Below are positions 7,840-63,105 of a DNA stretch of 64,000 nucleotides, in pieces. Within the stretch, counting starts at the first letter, position 1; every line of letters begins with the position of its first letter. The position numbers and the translations under genes were made by a program. Origin of the DNA: Lantana camara (Eukaryota; Streptophyta; Magnoliopsida; Lamiales; Verbenaceae); NCBI GenBank assembly GCA_037501455.1, contig CM074864.1, positions 20,020,001 through 20,084,000 of the forward strand. Reading direction: 5' to 3'. The notes below the pieces were generated by a model. The model searched no databases. It was given only the letters and a program-made list of their open reading frames with translations, and was not told the origin of the DNA.

Positions 7840-8625
7840 CTAAAGGAACGGTTCCTCCAGAAAAGTGGCATTTCTGGAAACAAACACCTTTTGCTCAGAT
7901 TGATCATAGAAGTAGTATCCTATGGATTCCGTAGGATAACCTACAAAGTAGCATAAGTTAGAACGAGATTCTAACTTATCTCCCACTGTCCTCTTCACGT
8001 AAGCAGGACAACCCCAAATTCTTAAGTAAGAATAACTAGGGATTTTACCATGCCACATTTCATAGGGCGTTTTAGGGACTGACTTAGAGGGAACTAGATT
8101 CAAAATCTTTGCTACACTTTCTAGGGCATAACCTCAGAAAGAAGGTGGTAAGTCAGTGAAAGTCATCATGGAGTCAGTGAAACTCATCGTGAAACGAACC
8201 ATATCGAGTAGGGTTCGATTCCTTCTCTCAAAAACTCCATTAAGCTGAGGAGTTCCCGGAGGAGTCCACTGAGAGATAATCCCATTATCTTTGAGATGAT
8301 TAAGGAATTCTTCACTAAGATACTCGCCTCCTCGATCAGATCGAAGTGCTTTGATCTTGTGACCAGTTTGGTTCTCAACCTCCTTTTGAAATTCTAAGAA
8401 TTTCTCAAAAGCTTCAGATTTATACTTCATTAAGTATACATAACCATACCGACTAAAGTCATCAGTAAAGGTTATGAAATAATGATGATTGTTTCTAGTG
8501 CTTACACTAAGCGGTCCACAAACATCAGAATGGATCAAATCCAAAACCTTAGTGGCACGTTCCACAGTTCCTTTAAAAGGGACTTTTGACATTTTTCCTT
8601 TGAGACAGGATTCGCAAGAAGTCAA
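7840..8625 (-). pseudogene. Copia-II integrase core, broken
   Basis: rve-type integrase core lying before RT, the copia order. The first Asp is in LIHSDVCGPL, the second in SDRGGEYL, and the Glu in NGVFERRNRT, giving a DDE arrangement. A piece with CQ-like SCESCLKGK lies at the N-terminal edge, the end of the HHCC zinc region. The frame is lost near 8130 and the C-terminal portion continues at 7840-8103, including a PYEMWHGKIPSYSYLRIWGC-type block that is typical of copia. About 260 bp between this and RT (7576-7839) are a degraded linker. Confidence 0.9.
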
Positions 8626-9186
8626 CTCTTTGAGATCATTTTCAGAGAATGATCCTAAAGTGTTTATCTTGCTAGTTCTGTTCTTGGAAATGTGTCATAA
8701 TCTAGCGTGCCATAAGGGAACTGAAACTTTGTCATCTCTCATACGTTTAGTTTCTCGTTGTATATTCATAATATTGATATTCTCAGTTAAATAAAGTCCA
8801 TTACTTAGAGTACCGATGTGAACGGAAGAGTTGTTCCGTTTGATAAAGTATTTACCATTCTTAATATAAGTTTCATAACCTTCACAATCTAAAATTGGAA
8901 CTGAAATTATATTACGAATAATGCTCGGTACATAAAGGACTTTATTTAAGGCTAACTCAAAACTACCTAAATCTAATCTAATTGTGCCTAAAGCTCGGGC
9001 TTCAACGTTTCAGCCATCGCCGATCTTCAAGATACATTCTCCTTCTTTGAGTTGTTGGACTTCACTTAGCATCTGTACATCATTACAGATATAAGTTCCA
9101 CAACCGGTATCAAGTACCCAAGAACTAGAATTAATAGAAATATTTATTTCAACGAGAAACATACCTTTTTTTAGAGTAGCCTTGTA
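8626..9186 (-). pseudogene. Copia-II protease and pre-integrase region, broken
   Basis: No long open frame, but translation of the minus strand shows SSSWVLDTGCGTYIC at about 9130-9085: an aspartic protease active site (DTG) of the retroviral type. A stop follows the IGDG motif near 9010. Further on, LWHARL and HISKN (about 8720-8685) mark the GAG-pre-integrase HHCC zinc region, with a TGA stop between the two histidines. The region is continuous with gag upstream and integrase downstream. Confidence 0.8.
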
Positions 9187-17417: not shown

Positions 17418-18287
17418 CTTCCCCTGTTTTTAGCCTGAGTTTGTTTTGTTCCGTTTACCCCTCAAACGAATTCCGATTAACCTGATTTTTGAACCCACAG
17501 AAAGCTCTTGAAGTCTAGAACAACCTCCAATTGGAATCACCTCAATATCGTTTCCATTTGTAAGATATTATCAATTCCTTTTTGGTGTCGTTGCTTTATC
17601 GACAAACTGCAATCATCCAACTTCAAGCTTACGCCATTTTCTCCTCACTTTGAACTAGAAAACGAGTCATATATCCTTGGAAAGACTTTTGTGTCTAGTT
17701 TCATTTTCAATAAACAAAACTCAATTCCAACTTCTAAAACTCCAAATATTTCCATTTTCCTACAACTTATGCGTTTCCAAAAACTGTCAACTTTTGCCAA
17801 ACTTCACCAAAACCCTTCTTATTGCATTCCTTTCACTTCCTTGGCTCCTTTGTGTGACTTATATGAGTTATATACTTCATTTATTGATAAGTATGCTCAT
17901 ATTTGACACTTATTGATACTTTATTTGGGAATTTAGACACATTCATGATATTTATTGATTGTGAAGGCATGATTGACATCTCATGACTTTGCCGTTCATC
18001 TTAAATGGTTCATACGAGTCGAGTCCCATGTACACTTGTCCTTGTACATAGATCACGGTCCCAGAGACGAGGAGCATACTCCATAGGGTGCTTCCTTTCT
18101 ACTTTTGGTTGGTTGGTAAAGGTGAGGTTTAATTTCTAGTTATATAGAATCCGTACAACCCTTATGTGATGTTTTCGGCCAAAATGTATCTATATATCTA
18201 TAGTTTTCCAAATCTAAAATGATTGTAAGCTAGCCATGTTATTGTACTGAATCAAGCAAGCTATGTTATTGATTTATTGATTGATTG

Positions 18288-18501
18288 GGCGAGTAAAGCA
18301 TGTTCACTTTGGGCCCGAGGGTAGTGTATTGAGCTAACCGGGAAAGCAAGGGCTAACGGGTAACTCTTTCACTATCCTCACCATGTTAGGATCACCTCTG
18401 AATCCACCAGGTGGTTTGGTGGAGGAAGAAATCCCGTGCGTGGGAGTCATGTTCCCGACGTACACCATGATTGGATGGTTGGGTCTTGCAAGCCCACCAT
18501 C
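18288..18501 (+). other. Structured block of LTR A (partial)
   Basis: The left half of the closing helix GGCGAGT is at 18288-18294. Stem I GGGTAGTG/CACTATCC is at 18319-18326/18370-18377, and stem II CCACCA/TGGTGG at 18404-18409/18417-18422. Stem III GTGCGTGGGA/TCCCgACGTAC is at 18436-18445/18453-18463, and stem IV GATGGTTGGG/CCCACCATC at 18474-18483/18493-18501. The right closing strand is lost at the TRIM junction. Confidence 0.65.
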
Positions 18502-18582
18502 ACCCGGAGGAAAAAGGGTTCATGAAACTGCTTCTTGTGCACTGTAATGAATTGCATGATCACCCTTGAATGTAAACTAAAG

Positions 18583-20160: not shown

Positions 20161-22956
20161 TGTGACGCCCCGCCTCTTCGGCATTTCAGGTACGACGTCA
20201 CGAGAGAGTTTAATTCAGTAATTTTGTGAATTATGTGATTTAGCATGCTGACGTGTCAATGTGATATTTATTTTAATTATGTGTGCTTTAGAATTTAATT
20301 AAATGTCTTGGACTCAATTGTCCAATGTTTGCAATTTAGGGACCTAATTATAATTAGGACGTTTGAGCCTTCGTGGCTATTTGAGCTCGGGAATTCGAAT
20401 TCGAATTCCGACCCTATCGTTGAGTTCGTTTCGATGATTCGGATTCAATGAATTAACCATTTATTTTCTAAAGCCATTTGATAGCCTTACTGTTTTAAAT
20501 CCGATCCGAATGGACCGGATACCGTTTGACCCTAACCATTTTAACCGACCCGTTTGCCCGGCCCTAAAAAGGGCCAAGCTTTTTCCCTCCTCACTTGATC
20601 GATCAGCAGCGACAAGGAAGAGAGGAAGAGAAGCTTTTTCCCCATTTTTGGTCATCAAGCCTTGAGCTCGGGTTTGGAAGATCCAACCGTCCGATCAACG
20701 ACCCAATGTAAGATTTGTGACCCTTTCGTTACGTGCTTTAATTTATCGTCTCTTTCGTGCCTCGGATATGTGCCTACGTGCTTTGTTGGGGAAGATGATA
20801 AATAGTAGCGGGTCGGGGGTTTGGCGTGATTAAGCTCGTTTTTTGAGCTCTTAAGTGTAATTATGTGCTATATATGTTATATATGCTTTACTGTGTTAAT
20901 TTTGCATGCTTTGGTTGTTGGTTGTGGCTGTTTGAGTGTGGTGGTGTTGGCTCCCGAGGCCATTGCTGCTTCAGCTCTATTTTAGTGAGCAGGACGGTCC
21001 GGAACGGCCGTTCCCGTTTTGGCCTTGGGGCCGGAACGGCCATTCCCATCCGCGTGTGGGAACGGCCATTCCCGTTTTGCCTTGTGTCTGGGAACGGCCC
21101 TTCCCGTGGTCCAGTGTGTGGTTTTGGGTTTTTTATGCTTTTAATTGATTTCTTTTGCCGCTGATTGATTTATATCTTAATTGTATTGCATGTTTTGATA
21201 TGAATTCGCATTATATGCTATGCTTGGTGCTTGAATGGTATTTTAATATTAACGAATGAGTATTTTATGCGTGTATACGTGATCCATGACTTCATGCCAA
21301 TCATAAGCATACGCCGTGCGTTTATTTGGTTCATTCACGTGTCTAAGTCCTGTTTTGTATTCAGTTTGTTCAGGTACACCCGGGGTGGTGTTTTATGGGC
21401 CGTGTTGATTCCGGGGTGGATCATTTGTTGTGTCTTCGGCCTCTTCGGTGTCAGGTGAGGTTAGGATATAGTTATTCCTTAATAAAATGTGCTCGGTTTT
21501 GATGCATGTGATTTAATAAAGCCTTATATGTACGTAAATAGGTGTGGGATACGTATTTGTTTGATACGTCAAAGATTTGCAAGTATGTTAAGCAATGTAC
21601 AAGCCTATGTATGCTTGATTTGGAATGATTTGTTATGTTTTGCCACGCGAAGCTATGCTTCTAACCGTATACTTCTCATGAGCCAAGTTTGGCAAGGACC
21701 GAGTGGATTGAAACGGAAAATGGTATGTATACGTATATATGTACAAGTCTGTCTGTTTGTCTGTCTCTGTTGTAGCGGGATATGATATGATATGTGTTTG
21801 TTGGGCCCCGGAGCTATGGGTAAGGAGCCCTCGGGACGGCATAGGGCCTTCGAGGTTAAGCCTGTGCATAGTCTCCATATGTTTGCAGAGGATCACCCCT
21901 GAACTCACCAGGAGGTTTGGTGAGGGAAGGAATCCTGAGGGTTTGAGTACTCGCAAGGCGCTCCCCTCGTTTGTTTGGATGGTTTGGGCGTATACACCCT
22001 TCCATCACCCGGAGTTGAGGATGATATGATATGATATGTATGTAAGTTTTCTGTTTTGATTCTGATATGATATGTTATGAGGAGATTGGGGGAGACGGAG
22101 CTCGTACCCGCCGAGTTCTATATGATTTGATATGTATGTTCTATTAAGGTTTATGAAACGGGGATAGATTCTAAGTTAAACTAAAAGGGAGTTTTTATAA
22201 GATAAGCTAAGTTTTGAATATGCTAAGATTTAATAAGCTTTGCTAAGTTTGTTCGGTAAGTTATTTTGGTTTGTTTGATTTTGCTAAAGTAAGCCCTATA
22301 TGTATATATCACAGGAAACGATTTAGTGTGCAAAAACTATCCCTGCGTTCATGAACACTATGAATTTGATATGTGCTTTGCTCCTATATATATATAGTGT
22401 GAGTGCGTTAACCCCTCACTCAGTCGAGTTAAGACTGACCCCTCCCCTTTTACTTTTAGTTTGCAGGCTTTGCTTGGTGTTCGGGCTAGGCGGAGTGTGT
22501 CTATCCTTTGAATTCTGGTTCTCGAGTCTATGTCTAGTAGGTTTTCTTGCATTCGCATTTCTTTAATTCGGCTTATGTATAAAGTATGTTTGAATATGAT
22601 ATATGGAATTTAATTATGAATTGATATGTATATTTCGGGACAGGTTAGGACAGGTTAGCCTAAATTAGTTGAACCCGTTGGATTTATGATTATTGTTGGA
22701 TATTCGGGATTAGGTATTTATGCTAGTTGAACCCGTCAACTGTTTATGTATGTTTGATTGTTGCGTGACTTATTTCACTTTCGCATTTTTGTTGTCTGTT
22801 TGGTTATGTTGTTTAGGGTCTAAGTTCCGCCTAGCTTAGGTGTGAGTCTGTCAGTCTCCCGTTCGCCACTGTTTGGTACATGTACGGACTTCCCATTTCG
22901 TATGTGGATCGGACTTTGGTGCAGGGGATGTGGTGAACCACCGTGCGGGTGCTACA
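20161..22956 (+). mobile_element. Gypsy LTR B (Tekay-type)
   Basis: Starts TGTGACGCCCCG right after a PPT and ends GTGCTACA eight bases before a PBS; 2796 bp. It shares with the other Tekay-type LTRs the dyad array (21001-21105), donor-like TCAG/GTGAGG (21454-21455), hairpins TCACCA/TGGTGA near 21904-21922 and GATGG..GGG/CCC..CCATC near 21979-22008, and an acceptor-like TTTTAGTTTGCAG ending at 22466. The part before the hairpins is diverged from LTRs A, C, D and E. Confidence 0.85.
21001..21105. repeat. Dyad array in LTR B
   Basis: Four copies at 21001-21015, 21033-21047, 21058-21073 and 21090-21105, consensus GGGAACGGCCGTTCCC. Two copies show CGT to CAT, as expected from CpG decay on one strand. 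Confidence 0.9.
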
Positions 22957-34273: not shown

Positions 34274-35694
34274 GTATCAATTTTATTATGAGATTTCATG
34301 TTTAAGTTTCATAGGGGAGGTTTGTGTAATATTTCCATACTTTGATTTATACCTTGAATACTTGATCCTTGCTACTTTGTTTGATAAATTGAATACGTTT
34401 ATAATATTTATTTATCGCAATTGCATGATTGACACTATTGGAACATGTCATTCGTCTTAAATGGTTCATTCGAGTCGAGTTTCACGTACACTTGTCCTTG
34501 TTACACAGATCACATACCGGGTAACGAGGAGCACACTCTGTAGGGCGTATCCTTATTTCTTTTGGTTGGTAAAGGTGAGGTTACTTCTAAATAAAAAGAA
34601 ACCTACAACCCTATGTGAATTTTGGACCAAAATGTGTCTATATATATAGTTATAGTTTCCAAAACTTTATTGATCTTCAATTGAATTAGTAAATTGTACC
34701 GACTGATTGATTGACCGATTGATCGACTGAATTGATTGTTTGGCGAGTATATTGTTCACTGTGGGCCCGAGGGTAGTGTATTGAGCCAACCGGGAAAGTG
34801 TGGGCTGACGGGAAACTCATGCACTATCCTCACATTGTTTGGGATGACCCCTGAATCCACTAGGAGATTAGTTGAGGAAGGAGTTTCGGGTATAGGGAAT
34901 CATGAACCCTATACTCACACTGATTGGATGGCGGGGCCTTGCAATCCCCCATCACCCTGAGGAAGAAGGATGGACTATTGAAATTTCTAATTGTTCATAG
35001 AACTATATTGCTTGATCACTTAATTAATCACAACAGAATTATTGTATCCTATCAGAGAAAGGTTGGAGAATTGCCCTCGCTCGCCGGGTCACTGATTGAC
35101 TGAACGAAATTGTACCGAATTGATTGAATTGTTAATTGATTAGTTGTAATCTCGGGCGAGGTCTATCTTATTCTTGAACTTATATTGTTTCTTTTATAAA
35201 AATCTTACCCGAGATTATAGCTCGTGTGGTAATTACGCTTTTAAATTATAAACCCCTCACTTAGTCTTTCTTAGACTGACACCTCACATTTTCAGGTATT
35301 GCAGGTTGAGTACCAGACGGGATTGAGTCGAGTTTTTGCTTCTTTTAGGTCTAACACTTATCATTCTCATGTTTCATGTATATTATGGGTACATTTATCG
35401 CTTATGAATTGTTTTGGGTATATATGTATATATTATGAATGACACTTGAGATTTGGAGTGTGTAATTATGGATATGAAATGGAAATGAACGATGAAGTGA
35501 ATGTATGTTGATATACTTGCCCTTAAGTCTTTACATTGTGGTATTAGTTGGGGGTTAGTCCCGCCAAGCTAGTGTGTTATTTTCTTTATTGTCTCCCGTT
35601 CGCTATAGCTTTGGTTTATATATGTGTTATCCATTTCATATGTGAATTGAACTATAGTGCGGGGGATGTAGTGCCTAGCGTTCTGGGTGCTACA
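34274..35694 (+). mobile_element. Gypsy-II 5' LTR, 3' half
   Basis: Begins mid-LTR after the TRIM (aligns with 47145 onward) and ends GTGCTACA. It includes donor-like AAAG/GTGAGG at 34574-34575, the structured block, hairpin AGTCT/AGACT at 35263-35267/35273-35277, and acceptor-like TTTTCAG ending at 35295. The dyad array would lie upstream and is lost. Confidence 0.85.
34742..35085 (+). other. Structured block of Gypsy-II 5' LTR
   Basis: Closing helix GGCGAG/CTCGCC is at 34742-34747/35080-35085. Stem I GGGTAGTG/CACTATCC is at 34771-34778/34822-34829, and stem II CCACTA/TAGTTG at 34857-34862/34869-34874. Stem III GGGTATAGGG/CCCTATACTC is at 34888-34897/34907-34916. Stem IV, with loop CCTTGCAA, is near 34927-34953. 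Confidence 0.7.
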
Positions 35695-35702
35695 TCTTAA
35701 GG

Positions 35703-35715
35703 TGGTATCAGAGCC
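35703..35715 (+). other. Gypsy-II primer-binding site
   Basis: TGGTATCAGAGCC, eight bases after the LTR end, the same gap as in LTR B and Gypsy-IV. Confidence 0.92.
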
Positions 35716-38094: not shown

Positions 38095-38860
38095 CCCTCA
38101 TACGAACTCCGATTGACTTGATTTTTGAACTCACGAAAACCTCTTGAAGTCTAGAAAAACCTCCAATTTGAATAATCTCAATATAATTTCTAGAATGTGA
38201 GATATAATCTATTCTTTTAGGTGTCGCCACTTTCCTGACAAACTGCACTCGCCTAACTTCAAGCTTATGCCATTTTCTCCTCACTTTGAAATAGAAAACA
38301 AACCATATATCATCGGAAAGGTCTTTATGTCTAGTTTTATATCCATCAAACAAAAATCAATTCCCACTCCTAGAACTCAAGATATTCCAGTTTTCCTATA
38401 GCATGTACGTTTCCTGAAATTGTCCATTTTTACCAAACTTCACCAAAACCTCTCTTATTGCATTCCTTTCACTTGCTTGGCTCCCGTATGTGACTTATAC
38501 GATATATATACTTGTTTTATTGATAATTATGCTCCTACTTGACATTCCTTAATTGTTATTGCATGAAACATTGATCATAACTTTGTCGTGCGTCGTAAAT
38601 GATGCATACGAGTCGTGTCTCACGAACACTTGTCCCTTTTTACACAGATTCTCTTTTCGTTGATGAGGAGAAAGCTCTATAGCCGTATCCTTGTTATATT
38701 TTTGGCACAGGTGAGGTTTAATTCTAGATATATAGAACCCGTACAACCCTACGTGATGTTTTCGGCCAAAATGTATCTATATATCTGTAGTTTTCCAAAC
38801 CTTATTAATTTTCAACTGATTTCATGGAATTGCTTGATTAATTGATTGTTTGATTGATTG

Positions 38861-39206
38861 GGTGAGTAAGCATGTTCACTTTGGCCCCGAGGGTAGTGTA
38901 TTGAGCCAACCGGGGAAGCAAGGGCTGACAGGTAACTCTTGCAGTATCCTCACCATGTTGGGGTCACCCCTGAATCCACCAGGAGGTTTGGTGGAGGAAG
39001 GAGCCCGCTGGGCATAGGGACTAATGAACCCTATGCCCAGATTGATTGGGTGGTCGGGCCTTACAATCCCACCATCACCCGAAGGAATAAGGAGTTATTG
39101 AAACTGCTAATTGTGCACTGCAATTGATTTCTTGATCACCTAATCACTTAATAACTGAATTATTGTACACTGTCGGAGAAAGGTTGGAGATTTGCCCTCA
39201 CTCGCC
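38861..39206 (+). other. Structured block of LTR C
   Basis: Closing helix GGTGAGT/ACTCGCC is at 38861-38867/39200-39206, and stem II CCACCA/TGGTGG at 38976-38981/38989-38994. Stem III CTGGGCATAGGG/CCCTATGCCCAG is a perfect 12-bp stem at 39008-39019/39029-39040. Stem IV, with loop CCTTACAA, is near 39049-39075. Stem I has one mismatch (38891-38898/38942-38949). Next to the acceptor is CAGTCT/AGACTG at 39374-39379/39385-39390. Confidence 0.7.
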
Positions 39207-39716
39207 GGGCCACTGATTGATTTAATTGAACTAATTGAATTGTTAAATTGATTAGTTGTAATCTCGGGTGAGTTGTATTTTATTATTGAACATATATTAT
39301 TTTCTTTAAAAAATCTTACCCGAGACTATAGCTTGCATGGAAATTGCGCTTATATTTATTTATACCCCTCACTCAGTCTTTCATAGACTGACACCTCACC
39401 TTTTCAGGTCTGCAGGTTGCATGCTAGGCGAGATCGAGTCAAGTCTTTTATTTTGAGTCTAGCATTCCACTTTCATGTTGGTACATATGTATATGATGTA
39501 ATTGAACTTAAGGATAATGAAGAGAATGTATATTATGTTTTCATTTTTTGAATCGTATATGTTGGTAATATCTGAGGGTTAGTCCCGCCTAGCTAGAGGT
39601 TTATTTTCTTTTGTCAACCGTTCGCTGTAGTCTTAGTTCATGTACGGATCATCCATTTCGTATGTGGACTGAGCTACAGTGCGGGGGTGTGGCATCTCTA
39701 CGTATAGGGTGCTACA

Positions 39717-41533: not shown

Positions 41534-41763
41534 GGGAACGACCGTTCCCAGCCTCAAGGCATTGAGGGAACGGGCGTTCCCACCTTTTCAAATGAACTGG
41601 GCGCCCGAGCATGGGAACGGCCGTTCCCACTTTGGCCTTGCTGCCGGAAGGGCCGTTCCCAGCTAGAAGGCGCGCTTTTAATTTTAAAATCGTTGGCGCG
41701 TTTTGGGGAACTCATGGGAACGACCGTTCCCATTTTGCAAAGGGGACCGGAACGGTCGTTCCC
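41534..41763. repeat. Dyad array in LTR D
   Basis: Six copies at 41534-41549, 41566-41581, 41613-41628, 41645-41660, 41716-41731 and 41748-41763, consensus GGGAACGNNCGTTCCC. The third is a perfect palindrome. The two central bases vary (AC, GG, GC, GT), while the arms are kept. Confidence 0.93.
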
Positions 41764-42185
41764 ACCTGGAATGCAGAACAAAATTCACTGCATAAAATTA
41801 CGAAAATGACCCCTCGATCCAACGACTTCTTTGATCCCGAATTGCTATAATATGTGCTAATATGAAGTGAAACAACATGTTATCATGCCACATTGTATTT
41901 TCGTGGTCGTCTCGATACATTTTCGCCGTTCGTCATATTTTGGTCATTTTAGGTCATGTCTCACGTATATACGTCGTATTTGCACAGGTCACGAGGGCGT
42001 GGACGGGGAGCAAGCTCCTTAGAACACTTCTTTACTGTATTTTGCAAGGAAAGGTGAGGTTTTAGGTTATGTATATAGAACCCTAGCACCCCTATGTGCT
42101 ATTTCGGCCAAAATATACTATATTTATAAATGATTTCAAAACCATGAATATTTCAAGCAAGCAAGTCATGATTTCAAGCATGTTT

Positions 42186-42585
42186 GGCGAGTACATGATT
42201 GTACGTGGGCCCGAGGGTAATTCTTGAGCCAACCGGGAAAGCAAGGGCTGACGGGTAACTCCTGAATTATCCTCACATTGTTGGGATCACCCCCGAAGCC
42301 ACTAGGAGATTAGTGGTGGAAGGAGTTTCGTGTCTAGAGGGTCATGTCCTCTACACACACCATGTCGTGGATTGTCGAGCCTTGCAAACTCGCTATCACC
42401 CAGAGGAAGAAGGAGACTGGGGATTAATCCGGCATGTCTGGTTATCCTCGGGTTATCGCATGATTTCAAGCATGAAATTGTCTATATGAGCACTAAATGA
42501 CATTGCATGATCATGTATTGAATTGATAAAGCAAGCACGTATTGTCACGTTTGGTGTTATGGTTGGAGATTCGCCCCTACTCGCC
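42186..42585 (+). other. Structured block of LTR D
   Basis: Closing helix GGCGAGT/ACTCGCC is at 42186-42192/42579-42585. Stem I GGGTAATTC/GAATTATCC is at 42215-42223/42264-42272, and stem II CCACTA/TAGTGG at 42299-42304/42311-42316. Stem III GTGTctAGAGG/CCTCTacACAC is at 42330-42340/42348-42358. Stem IV CGAG/CTCG, with loop CCTTGCAAA, is at 42376-42379/42389-42392. Stems I to IV differ in sequence from LTR C but still pair. Confidence 0.72.
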
Positions 42586-43202
42586 GGGGTCACATGTTCA
42601 TGAAATGTTTAAGCTAAAATGTTAAAGTGATTGGTTGTAATCTCGGGCAAAGATTAAGTTTCTTGAGTTATATATTCCTTTCAATTCCAAAGTCTTCACC
42701 CGAGGCTACACCTTGCATGTGATGTGTGTTATATATATTTATTGCCCCTCACTTAGTCTTCGGTAGACTGACACTTCACTTTTTAGGTACACTTTGAGCG
42801 TGGTCGTACTAGGGGGGAGTTGTTCGAGTCTTGCATTTCCACGGGTCTAGTCTCATACCCTCATGTATAGTTTTATGCTAGTTTCATGTTATAACAATGT
42901 TCTCACGTTTTGGATACTCGAGTATGTATATTATTAAGAGATGATAATGTATTGATAGTTAAGTTGGTATCTATACGTATCTATTCGGTAAATATGGTAC
43001 CTATACGTATGCATGATCTTATTGTTTCCGCTTTCATTATCATGTTTGCTTTGGTGTTGTAGGGGAGAGTGTCCCGCCTAGCTCGTCATTTTTATTGTCA
43101 CCCGTTCGCTATAGTTTTGGTTTATGTATGGACTTCCCATTTCATACGTGGATCGAGGCTATAGTGCGGGGGATGTGGTGCCCAGGGGGTTAGGGTGCTA
43201 CA

Positions 43203-45890: not shown

Positions 45891-47649
45891 TGTAACGCCC
45901 CAATTTCCGGAAGTTCGGGTAAGCACGCCATGAGCGGGTCTTCGGGAGTTGGGAGGTTTAATTTAGTTATTTCATTTATTTATTTATAACTTTCATAGTA
46001 TTATATATGCATTACATCTCCATGTACGTATATGAATTGTCATTAATATGAATTATACGAACTAATTGATATATGTGACTTAATTGCACTATATGTCCTT
46101 AATTGATCCTTGGTGTAAATTTGTATACTTAATTGCATAACATGAGATGGATATAAGTGATCTTTTGTGTAGAGATGAAACTTGATTGCAGGAATTTAAA
46201 TAGCTTAGGGACTTATGTGCAAAATGTAATGAATCACACATATTCATGCTAGACTTTGTTATATTATGTATTGCTTCTGATTCATTCCATTACATTCCAA
46301 GATATACAAGAAATCTCACACATTACACACACCATATATCGATCAAAACACCAAGGGGAAGACAGGAAGATTTCATCTCAAATTCAAGCTAGTTTTTGAA
46401 GGGATTTTGGAGCTAGGATTATCATCATCATCATAGCCACTTTTCATCTCATATTTCTTTCATTTCAAGGTATAATATGGAAAATTATGAATCTCTTGAT
46501 TTGTGTATGAGTAGGGTTTATGGATTTAATGATGAATTCTTGCATGTTTGGACCTAGAAGCATGTCTATGACCAAAAAGATTGAAAGCTTGCATGGAAAC
46601 ATTGAATTAATTAGAAGTTGGAAGCATGAATAATTATGAGGTTTTCATGATTGATTTTTGATGCTTTGATGCATATTTCTTGGTTTATTTGATGGATAAG
46701 TGAAGTATAATGTGTTTTGGGTGTGTTGGATCAATTCTTATGGAATGAATTTGCTTTGATTGTTGGTTTTGTGGTGTTATGGTTCGGACTCCCATGTTTT
46801 TCCCTGTTTTTCAGCTGCTGCGTAGCAGGTCGCGCCCGCGACCGATAACAAAACAAATTTGGTCACGCCCACAACCCACTCACCGCTTTGGCGGAACTTC
46901 AGGTCGAGCCCACGACCTGAATTAGGTGTTTTTCAGTAGCGGCCCTGACCCGATTTTGGCCAAGTTTCAAGATTTGAAAAATTGGATTAAAAATACCTGA
47001 AAAAAATAGGTCACGCCCGCGACCCCTGCATTTTCTGCATAAAAATGTGAATTTCAAACTTAATTTGCATGGATTTCTTTGTTCGTTTCCGGCATGAACA
47101 CTTCATTGATATACCATATAAAGCATGATATTGTGTATATCAATTGTATTATGAGATTTCAAGTTTAAGTTTCATAGGGGAGGTTTGTGTAATATTTCCA
47201 TACTTTGATTTATACCTTGAATACTTGATCCTTGCTACTTTGTTTGATAAATTGAATACGTTTATGATATTTATTGATTGCAATTACCTGATTGACACTA
47301 TTGGAACATGCCGTTCGTCTTAAATGGTTCATTCGAGTCGAGTTTCACGTACACTTGTCCTTGCTACACAGATCACATACCGGGTGACGAGGAGCACGCT
47401 CTCTAGGGTGTATCCTTATTTCTTTTGGTCGGTAAAGGTGAGGTTACTTCTAAACGAAAAGAACCCTACAACCCTATGTGAATTTTGGACCAAAATGTAT
47501 CTATATATATAGTTATAGTTTCCAAAACTTTATTGATCTTCAATTGAATTATCAAATTGTACCGACTGATTGATTGACCGATTAATCAACTGAATTGATT
47601 GTTTGGCGAGTATATTGTTCACTGTGGGCCCGAGGGTAGTGTATTGAGT
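45891..47649 (+). mobile_element. Gypsy-II 3' LTR (LTR E), cut by Gypsy-III
   Basis: Starts TGTAACGCCCCAATTTCCGG. It includes a dyad array, the donor-like AAAG/GTGAGG at 47437-47438, GGCGAGT at 47605-47611 and the start of stem I, where Gypsy-III interrupts it at 47650. The remainder must lie right of the window. The region 47141-47649 parallels 34274-34790. Confidence 0.9.
46828..47024. repeat. Dyad array in LTR E
   Basis: Four copies at 46828-46843, 46861-46876, 46902-46917 and 47009-47024, consensus GGTCRCGCCCGCGACC: two 7-bp complementary arms around central CC. Different arm sequence from the other LTRs but the same CG-NN-CG layout. Confidence 0.88.
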
Positions 47650-54067: not shown

Positions 54068-54680
54068 TGTAGCACCCGGAACGCCAGGCACCACATCCCC
54101 CGCACTATAGCTCCAATCCACATATGGAATGGGCAATCCATACATGAATCAAAGCGATAGCGAACGGGAGACAATAAAATGACTCAAGGCTAGGCGGGTA
54201 CCCTCAATTTAAAACCGACTAACAATCAAATCAGAGTATAAAAACCGCGGAAGCAATACCATTCATTAAATACGTATAAGTACCATATTTATTTATTTAC
54301 GTATAGATACCAACATTTACACAATCAATACAATATCATCCTTCGACAAGATAGATAACAGGGCTCGATACAAAATATCCCAAGCTAACTATACATGAAC
54401 AAAATGTGGAATGAAGTGTGCTAGACCCAAATTTAAAGACCTCATGACTCTAAATTCCCGCCTAGTACGCCCTGCAAAACACTGAAAAGTTGAGGTGTCA
54501 GTCCAACTCGGACTGAGCGAGGGGTATAAATAAATATAAGCGCACATACATGCAAGTTATAACCTCGGGTAATAATTTTGGAAAACAATACGATATAATA
54601 AGTTAAAAGAGATACGATCGCCCGAGATTACAACTATTCCAATTTCAATTCAATCAATTCAATACAATCAATAGTGGCCC

Positions 54681-55027
54681 GGCGAGTGGGGCAATTCTCC
54701 AACCTTACACCGACTGTGTACAATCAATCAATCAATTATTAGGTGATTAGGTGATCAAGCAATTCATTAATGTGCACAATTAGCAATTTCAATGACGCCT
54801 TCTTCCTCCGGGTGATGGTGGGATTGCAAGGCCCCACCATCCAATCAATCTGGGCAGAGGGTACATGAATCCCTAAGCCCGGAACTCCTTTCCCGCCCTA
54901 ATCTCCTAGGGGGTTCAGGGGTCATCCCAATTTGGTGAGGATAGCTCCCGAGTTACCCGTCAGCCCATGCTTTCCCGGTTAGCTCGAGTCACTACCCTCG
55001 GGCCCACAGTGCAATACAATACTCGCC
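54681..55027 (-). other. Structured block of LTR F
   Basis: In plus coordinates, the closing helix GGCGAGT/ACTCGCC is at 54681-54687/55021-55027. Stem IV GATGGTGGG/CCCACCATC is at 54814-54822/54833-54841. Stem III GGGCagAGGG/CCCTaaGCCC is at 54852-54861/54871-54880. Stem II CCCTA/TAGGG is at 54896-54900/54907-54911. Stem I is weak in this copy. Confidence 0.7.
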
Positions 55028-55470
55028 CAATCAATCAATCAATCAATCAATTCTTTTCAATATTTCGATAAACATTTGAAAACCAATCTCATTTGAAAAC
55101 TATAAGTATAAATATAGGTTTTGGCTTAAAATATCACATAGGGTTGTACGGGTCCTATGTATCTAAAATTAAACCTCACCTGAACGACCCAAAAATACCC
55201 AAGGAAACAGCTCACGGGGCCTGCTCCTCGTCACCAGGAAGCTGGTCTGTGCAAGAAAGACAATTGTCCGTGAAACACGACTCAAAATGTACCAAATAGG
55301 ACGAACGGCAAAATGCGACGAAACGACGGGAAAAATACAATGCACCTGGAAAATATTGCGTTTCAAAATGTATGCGATCATAATAAAGCAATTAGGGGTC
55401 AAAGAAGCCGTCCGATCGAGGTGCGAAAATTTTAATTTTATGAAGTGAATTTTCGCACTTTCTGGACTAT

Positions 55471-55694
55471 GGGAACGGCCGTTCCGGCTTCCCTTTGAAA
55501 ATGGGAAGGGCCGTTCCCAGGCCTGAAGAAAACGTGCCAGCGTTTTTTTAAAAAGGGAAACGTTTTAGCCGGGAACGGCCCTTCCGGCTCAAAGGCCAAA
55601 ATGGGAATGGCCGTTCCCAATCTCGCTGGCCTTGTCTCAGCATCATGGGAACGGCCGTTCCAGTTTTGAACTGGAGCTGGGAAGGGCCGTTCCC
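55471..55694. repeat. Dyad array in LTR F
   Basis: Six copies at 55471-55486, 55503-55518, 55571-55586, 55603-55618, 55647-55662 and 55679-55694, consensus GGGAACGGCCGTTCCC with one- or two-base changes. Confidence 0.93.
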
Positions 55695-61457: not shown

Positions 61458-61470
61458 GGCTCTGATACCA
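61458..61470 (-). other. Gypsy-IV primer-binding site
   Basis: Minus-strand TGGTATCAGAGCC, eight bases from the 5' LTR end; complementary to initiator-Met tRNA. Confidence 0.94.
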
Positions 61471-62091
61471 CCGTAGGATGTAGCACCCGGAACGCCAGGC
61501 ACCACATCCCCCGCACTATAGCTCCAATCCACATATGGAATGGGCAATCCATACATGAATCAAAGCGATAGCGAACAGGAGACAATAAAATGACTCAAGG
61601 CTAGGCGGGTACCCTCAATTTAAAACCGACTAACAATCAAATCAGAGTATAAAAACCGCGGAAGCAATACCATTCATTAAATACGTATAAGTACCATATT
61701 TATTTATTTACGTATAGATACCAACATTTACACTATCAATACAATATCATCCTTCGACAAGATAGATAACAGGGCTCGATACAAAATATCCCAAGCTAAC
61801 TATACATGAACAAAATGTGGAATGAAGTGTGCTAGACCCAAATTTAAAGACCTCATGACTCTAAATTCCCGCCTAGTACGCCCTGCAAAACACTGAAAAG
61901 TTGAGGTGTCAGTCCAACTCGGACTGAGCGAGGGGTATAAATAAATATAAGCGCACATACATGCAAGTTATAACCTCGGGTAATAATTTTGGAAAACAAT
62001 ATGATATAATAAGTTAAAAGAGATACGATCGCCCGAGATTACAACTATTCCAATTTCAATTCAATCAATTCAATACAATCAATAGTGGCCC

Positions 62092-62438
62092 GGCGAGTGG
62101 GGCAATTCTCCAACCTTACACCGACTGTGTACAATCAATCAATCAATTATTAGGTGATTAGGTGATCAAGCAATTCATTAATGTGCACAATTAGCAATTT
62201 CAATGACGCCTACTTCCTCCGGGTGATGGTGGGATTGCAAGGCCCCACCATCCAATCAATCTGGGCAGAGGGTACATGAATCCCTAAGCCCGGAACTCCT
62301 TTCCCGCCCTAATCTCCTAGGGGGTTCAGGGGTCATCCCAATTTGGTGAGGATAGCTCCCGAGTTACCCGTTAGCCCATGCTTTCCCGGTTAGCTCGAGT
62401 CACTACCCTCGGGCCCACAGTGCAATACAATACTCGCC
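62092..62438 (-). other. Structured block of LTR G
   Basis: Same stems as LTR F shifted by 7411: closing helix at 62092-62098/62432-62438. The only nearby differences I saw (for example at 62212 and 62371) lie outside the stems. Confidence 0.7.
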
Positions 62439-62881
62439 CAATCAATCAATCAATCAATCAATTCTTTTCAATATTTCGATAAACATTTGAAAACCAATCT
62501 CATTTGAAAACTATAAGTATAAATATAGGTTTTGGCTTAAAATATCACATAGGGTTGTACGGGTCCTATGTATCTAAAATTAAACCTCACCTGAACGACC
62601 CAAAAATATCCAAGGAAACAGCTCACGGGGCCTGCTCCTCGTCACCAGGAAGCTGGTCTGTGCAAGAAAGACAATTGTCCGTGAAACACGACTCAAAATG
62701 TACCAAATAGGACGAACGGCAAAATGCGACGAAACGACGGGAAAAATACAATGCACCTGGAAAATATTGCGTTTCAAAATGTATGCGATCATAATAAAGC
62801 AATTAGGGGTCAAAGAAGCCGTCCGATCGAGGTGCGAAAATTTTAATTTTATGCAGTGAATTTTCGCACTTTCTGGACTAT

Positions 62882-63105
62882 GGGAACGGCCGTTCCGGCT
62901 TCCCTTTGAAAATGGGAAGGGCCGTTCCCAGGCCTGAAGAAAACGTGCCGGCGTTTTTTTAAAAAGGGAAACGTTTTAGCCGGGAACGGCCCTTCCGGCT
63001 CAAAGGCCAAAATGGGAACGGCCGTTCCCAATCTCGCTGGCCTTGTCTCAGCATCATGGGAACGGCCGTTCCAGTTTTGAACTGGAGCTGGGAAGGGCCG
63101 TTCCC
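62882..63105. repeat. Dyad array in LTR G
   Basis: Six copies at 62882-62897, 62914-62929, 62982-62997, 63014-63029, 63058-63073 and 63090-63105. The fourth is a perfect GGGAACGGCCGTTCCC, whereas its LTR F partner at 55603 has T for the first CpG C. Confidence 0.93.

Follow-up and report, generated by a model that had tools for sequence, protein, structure and literature searches.

The window, a stretch of 64,000 nucleotides (nt) of Lantana camara DNA (assembly GCA_037501455.1, contig CM074864.1, positions 20,020,001 to 20,084,000, forward strand), contains at 38861-39206 a multi-hairpin domain which sits within the long terminal repeat (LTR) of a Ty3/Gypsy element. Read 5′ to 3′, the domain is composed of a GGCGAG strand, GGGCCC, stems I, II, III, and IV, an A/T-rich spacer, and a hairpin V whose loop contains CTCGCC. 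The copy flagged by an earlier note on this DNA runs on the plus strand from the 5′ pseudoknot strand through the end of hairpin V (38861..39210; profile stretch 38850-39218). Its 5′ strand, complementary to loop V, is GGTGAGT (38861..38867), hence one G.U pair; most family-1 copies have GGCGAGT. This is followed on the same strand by stem-loop I (GAGGGTAGTG / CAGTATCCTC plus inner helices; 38889..38951), stem-loop II (TCCACCA / TGGTGGA; 38975..38995), stem-loop III (CTGGGCATAGGG / CCCTATGCCCAG; 39008..39040), stem-loop IV (39048..39076; palindrome site 39061-39066, here TTACAA, one base off TTGCAA), and hairpin V, GCCC(TCACTCGCC)GGGC (39194..39210), where the loop ACTCGCC (39200-39206) would be the 3′ pseudoknot strand. 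Stems I-IV, already named in the earlier note, are all present in the block and are kept in diverged subfamilies, where they are retained with other letters (e.g., stem I of locus L017, GGGAC.TAGTATATG / CATATACTAGTCCC). The outer closing helix GGCGAGT/ACTCGCC proposed with them does not hold in its plain form: ACTCGCC is the loop of the further hairpin V (GCCC/GGGC and variants), and the closure therefore reads as a putative pseudoknot, the strands of which lie approximately 340 nt apart.

A profile search reveals eight stretches of the domain in the window, one of them short and one far diverged. In addition to the copy at 38861, those on the plus strand are copy A (18276..18571), in which the 3′ part has been replaced, a copy at 34731..35096 with its primer-binding site (PBS) at 35703, copy D (42179..42598), and a short 5′ piece (47594..47648). 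The far diverged copy (21770..22150, plus strand; profile match 21889-22014, core 21803-22015) was missing from the list in the earlier note; it has GTATAC as its loop IV palindrome, with CCCGC in loop V and a GCGGG 5′ strand. Copies F (54670..55039) and G (62081..62450), both on the minus strand, are found in the 3′ and 5′ LTRs, respectively, of a single element, F/G, whose PBS (TGGTATCAGAGC) begins at 61470 on the minus strand. The F/G LTRs are 99.4% identical over 2,523 nt and its 1,530-codon frame, submitted to Pfam in three pieces, encodes gag, protease, reverse transcriptase (RT), RNase H, and integrase; for Chromo, the matches reach 21.0 and 24.0 bits, short of the Pfam cut-off of 25.1. 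Rfam, at gathering cut-offs, gave no matches within the window, and hence no known ribozyme family there; a search of IMG/VR viral contigs with one pattern likewise gave none.

The domain is widespread in the genome. A DNA search of the 1.27-Gb sequence with the block gave 6,869 candidates, and the 40 that were scored show 89-100% identity. Ten of 20 genome regions (10 kb each, chosen by position) contain a copy at a profile E≤1e-3. Loci L013, L023, and L026 gave weak profile matches; they possess the same architecture on inspection, and are tied by BLAST to one another and to other diverged copies. The stem-IV pattern of the diverged families matched 2,186 places, and the same pattern read backwards matched none. 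Within the L017 family, each of the 40 matches scored has 98-100% identity, and many are paired approximately 7 kb apart; this family looks recently active.

Conservation of the stems was assessed with an alignment of 19 copies (A2) made by sequence alone, in which 49 stem pairs were scored against a structure drawn with the same sequences in view. In A2, 88.6% of cells are paired, against 80.4% after shuffling and 38.5-50.6% in slid controls. Changes on both sides of a pair are found in 26 of the 49 pairs (15.3 shuffled, 10-13 slid) and in 86 cells (27.2 shuffled, 11-21 slid). A further test, modeled on the idea of R-scape, combined a G-test with average-product correction and a null in which substitutions are re-dealt along a FastTree tree; it was applied to 37 copies, chosen for diversity out of 58 blocks and aligned by sequence only. 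Among 44,551 column pairs those ranking 1, 2, and 3 belong to stems IV, II, and IV, respectively; from rank 4 on, the high-ranking pairs are mostly non-structural. When only the 36 proposed helix pairs are considered (two-set test), four reach E≤0.05, two in stem II and two in stem IV, whereas four slid controls gave 0, 0, 0, and 1 of 36. None of the tested pairs in stems I, III, and V is significant in this test; in the 37-copy alignment, stems I and III do not line up well from one family to another. The earlier suggestion that pairing kept under sequence change is a sign of selected RNA structure is thereby upheld by shuffled, slid, and phylogenetic controls, while its expectation of significant covariation in all four stems and the closing helix is borne out, among the 37 copies, for stems II and IV and not for stems I, III, and V. 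Testing all column pairs, with no restriction to those proposed, yields one pair at E≤0.05 for the 37 copies and one or none for the 19 copies under two nulls; as proof of structure it was set aside as underpowered.

UUGCAA forms loop IV in 14 of the 19 A2 rows; two rows carry other palindromes (GUAUAC, UGUACA) and three, including the copy at 38861, are one base off. The earlier description of a nearly fixed loop is accurate for the family on which it was based (CCTTGCAA); it fails in related families, where different palindromes take its place. Those found in at least two copies are UUGCAA, GUAUAC, UGUACA, GGUACC, GGAUCC, CGAUCG, UAAUUA, and UGUGCACA, and those found in single copies UGAUCA, CGGCCG, UCACGUGA, UUGCGCAA, UAGCUA (L031), and UGGCCA (L023). 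The counts that follow cover the first 100 places of each of two overlapping lists, the 2,186 stem-IV places and 599 nine-base loops. The former comprise 32 distinct loops in 13 clusters, seven of which hold a palindrome of at least 6 nt, against a mean of 1.5 after letter shuffling (p 1.5e-4). The latter comprise 33 distinct loops, with 68 copies possessing a palindrome of at least 6 nt; by distinct loop the count is 16 of 33 (3.5 shuffled). Among the 15 of these nine-base loops seen at least twice, 11 contain such a palindrome, 10 of them at positions 3-8; the column-shuffle mean is 1.9 and none of 20,000 shuffles reached 11 (p about 5e-5).

When the 36 pairs of loop columns are ranked by complementarity, the mirror pairs 4-7, 5-6, and 3-8 take the first three places, in that order. 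Bases 5 and 6 are adjacent, such that their pairing inside one molecule is impossible, and the palindrome axis of the nine-base loops (5.5) is offset from the stem axis (5). Because the palindrome persists while its letters change, the role of the loop can be narrowed to RNA-RNA kissing, to which this pattern points. A search for other loops in the family-1 stem context turned up one match, most likely a copy in decay. For loops of eight bases with either A or C in the third place there were 87 matches, most of them TCACGCAA, which looks like a CpG decay product of TCGCGCAA.

The two pseudoknot strands also vary between copies. Loop V of the CTC type is found with a GCGAG 5′ strand in 21 copies and never with GGG; the CCC type is found with GCGGG or ACGGG in six copies and with GCGAG in one. 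This association is significant (Fisher p 1.9e-5 on 28 copies), with the proviso that the CCC copies may be one lineage. The count covers 39 of the 58 copies, 19 having been skipped, and in 11 of the 39 neither strand was found inside the 75 nt searched. The automatic call of hairpin V is visibly wrong in a few copies, apparently including L041, which is the lone CCC copy with GCGAG. Because of these wrong calls and the possible single CCC lineage, the joint change of loop V and 5′ strand in families 1 and 2 is suggestive only. At L047 GUGAG is accompanied by CUCAC (5′ strand identified by eye).

The block lies ahead of the PBS: 9 of 33 copies yielded a PBS, at 896-1162 nt past the core start. 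The start of the block is approximately 0.8 to 2.9 kb past LTR-start motifs in five copies, the assignment of motif to copy being our own reading. Upstream of the domain there is a donor-like AG|GTGAGG (38709..38716, plus strand), and downstream a branch-like CTGAC, a pyrimidine-rich tract, and an acceptor-like CAG (39388..39415, plus strand; acceptor by eye). Of 33 copies, 25 have the GTGAGG motif 155-389 nt before the core, 22 of them as exact AGGTGAGG, and 21 have CTGAC[A/C/G]CC downstream, followed by an acceptor-like AG identified by eye; some loci end too early for these counts. Perhaps, then, the domain is located inside a putative leader intron. Clusters of the near-palindromic repeat GGAACGGCCNTTCC are also found upstream of the domain in the same LTRs (21001-21104, 41614-41659, 55472-55693, and 62883-63104), and again at L014 (~8560-8750, minus strand). 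On the 3′ side there is a possible further hairpin, read from the sequence (CTCGGGTGAG / CTTACCCGAG; 39263..39324, plus strand); these inverted repeats and those at 39374-39392 (CAGTCT/AGACTG) look conserved in other copies.

A gag-only element also carries the domain. Besides its PBS, the L042/L055 element (G000 C1:15627140-15631800) has a frame for gag (Pfam E 1.4e-20) together with a piece of protease. By eye, approximately 1.4 kb separates the PBS from the next LTR start, which is too little for RT and integrase. When the three pieces of the F/G frame were compared with this element by tblastn only the gag-protease piece matched; run on L014, L032, and L017 the search returned no match at all, and hence lacks a positive control for RT and integrase. 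The two copies of the block are 96.5% identical over 376 bp, and carry the loop IV palindrome UAAUUA. Retention of the domain by a gag-only element fits a cis-acting replication signal. Copies of this element are found in a row, approximately 4.4 kb apart, at C2:33464723-33477844.

Together these data lead us to regard the domain as probably a structured cis-acting RNA of chromodomain-type Ty3/Gypsy elements, serving to dimerize the genome and, by inference, to package it. By pairing with the distant loop V in a pseudoknot, the 5′ GGCGAG strand would hold hairpins I-IV together and present them. The self-complementary loop IV would then allow two unspliced genomic RNAs of one family, transcribed through the block, to kiss loop to loop, and Gag would package the kissed dimer. 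Were the domain to lie in a leader intron, only unspliced genomic RNA would carry it, and spliced RNA lacking the domain would go to translation. A tentative extension, which we consider possible and rather doubtful, is that the loop serves as a family-identity code: the different palindromes of coexisting families would make genomic RNAs pair with their own kind, the gag-only element would keep the scaffold with a palindrome of its own, and a removable leader intron would let splicing choose between translation and dimerization or packaging.

Several observations weigh against a kissing RNA. Under the phylogenetic null only a handful of helix pairs attain significance, and a single pair does so in one of the slid controls. 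Several of the loops differ by one base, so that there are fewer lineages than loops. Certain loops do not conform: UAGGAACAA, which accounts for 11 of the first 100 nine-base loops, is not palindromic, UAGGCACAA, UAGGUACAA, and GAGUACACA are without a 6-nt palindrome, and UCGCGCAA, 21 of the first 100 stem-IV places, has only GCGC. Loop IV is also free of a palindrome at L013, at L028, and in the L021 minus copy; in these the preceding hairpin holds UAGCUA or a near form. Across the 58 blocks the minimum free energy is barely below that of dinucleotide shuffles (mean z -1.31 sense, -1.71 antisense), and after allowing for composition the folding energies indicate no strand preference. In 56 of 58 blocks the sense strand folds more stably than the antisense, and the same gap exists in shuffles (12.8 vs 14.2 kcal/mol); since shuffles reproduce the sense/antisense difference, folding energy was rejected as proof. 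A second test of strand compares G.U cells, of which there are 64, with A.C cells, of which there are 23. This excess is above that in the sum of ten slid versions, 1192 G.U and 905 A.C (p about 0.001, the cells not being independent), yet the version slid by -4 gives 151 G.U and 53 A.C, matching the observed ratio. The strand claim is therefore weakened, and our confidence in an RNA function is only slightly lower; from these sequence data the folded strand is likely to be the element-sense RNA.

Some additional features of these hairpins deserve mention in their own right. The UAGGAACAA subfamily is multi-copy (e.g., G000 C1:40871749 and C1:40878053). Ahead of stem IV, an extra hairpin whose loop is UAGCUA or close to it is found in L013, L021 (minus, 3051), L028 (minus, 3763), L026, L032 (minus, 8921), and L036; it is possibly a second kissing site. 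Loop III (window 39008-39040) contains CATG in 15 of the 19 A2 rows and TCATGA in seven, and TCATGA occurs upstream of stem IV in 10 of 20 loci examined.

Other roles for the domain must be considered. It might function in nuclear export or translation control through host proteins, in the manner of the MusD transport element, the loop contact being internal or incidental. Such domains have an equally elaborate architecture, and a long unspliced RNA with a leader intron would require export; however, neither function needs a self-complementary loop with jointly changing letters, and protein sites tend to retain theirs, which leads us to judge this alternative unlikely. The kissing loops might instead link both LTR-derived ends of one RNA, circularizing it rather than joining two RNAs. 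The palindrome would serve this purpose as well as it would dimerization, and the block, if within the R region, would be present at both ends of one molecule; we view circularization as decidedly unlikely.

Nor need selection have acted on RNA at all. Inverted repeats may be kept by processes at the DNA level, either template switching which perfects quasi-palindromes or DNA sites for proteins, and it is in keeping with this that the folding energy is little below shuffles, that the antisense strand is no worse, and that the G.U excess is equalled in one of ten slid versions. By contrast, the offset between palindrome axis (5.5) and stem axis (5) means that one perfecting event cannot create both, the palindromes share no common site sequence, and some 340 nt separate the pseudoknot strands; we consider such an origin improbable. 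Common descent with neutral change, with the apparent pairing due to chance, could account for the zero to one pairs at E≤0.05 in the all-pairs tests; the slid controls, the two-set test, and the palindrome tests are all contrary to it, and it is scarcely credible.

The domain is not described in the literature searched, which covered few subscription papers. A 2025 review devoted to the life cycle of LTR elements in plants contains, by word search, neither "packaging signal" nor "dimer" (PMC12786077). For LTR elements of plants, the signals behind dimerization and packaging are poorly characterized, and a role of the domain in genome pairing would make this step testable in such elements. One genome here supplies a natural library of copies with many self-complementary loops, in effect an evolutionary test of RNA kissing. 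The proposed reading predicts that partners are chosen by family and that splicing switches an RNA between translation and packaging, and the domain indicates what a non-autonomous element must keep.

One counterpart is SL1 of HIV-1, the retroviral dimer initiation site and packaging signal, where genomic RNAs kiss through an apical loop. The two share a 6-nt palindrome in an apical loop, a nine-nt loop in which the palindrome occupies positions 3-8 and is flanked by A, and a location ahead of gag. Unlike SL1, the plant domain resides in the LTR before the PBS, is much larger, has a putative pseudoknot as its closure, and displays many palindromes in one genome. Architecturally, a close parallel is found in Ty1, which is a Copia element. 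Its 5′ domain, of approximately 330 nt, functions in dimerization and packaging; a long-range pseudoknot closes it around nested kissing hairpins (PMC5454406). The Ty1 kissing loops are two different complementary 7-mers (PMC5454406), whereas the plant domain has one palindrome. Ty3, like the elements considered here a member of Ty3/Gypsy, has in PAL6 a short palindrome, located apically in a hairpin, which has been proposed as the start of dimerization; PAL6 is situated in the GAG frame, and the available part of that report describes no comparable multi-hairpin domain or palindrome turnover (PMC11381356). Among plant LTR elements, the parasitic BARE2 reportedly retains conserved signals for dimerization and packaging, and a spliced RNA class exists; BARE1 and BARE2 are, by comparison, Copia elements of barley, the splice serves Gag production, and no covariation-based structure is given in the text at hand (PMC3735527). 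Lastly, the MusD transport element likewise combines a pseudoknot with kissing-loop motifs in a retrotransposon RNA, in this case from a mouse element and for nuclear export, with kissing that is described as belonging to an intramolecular structure (PMC12786077).
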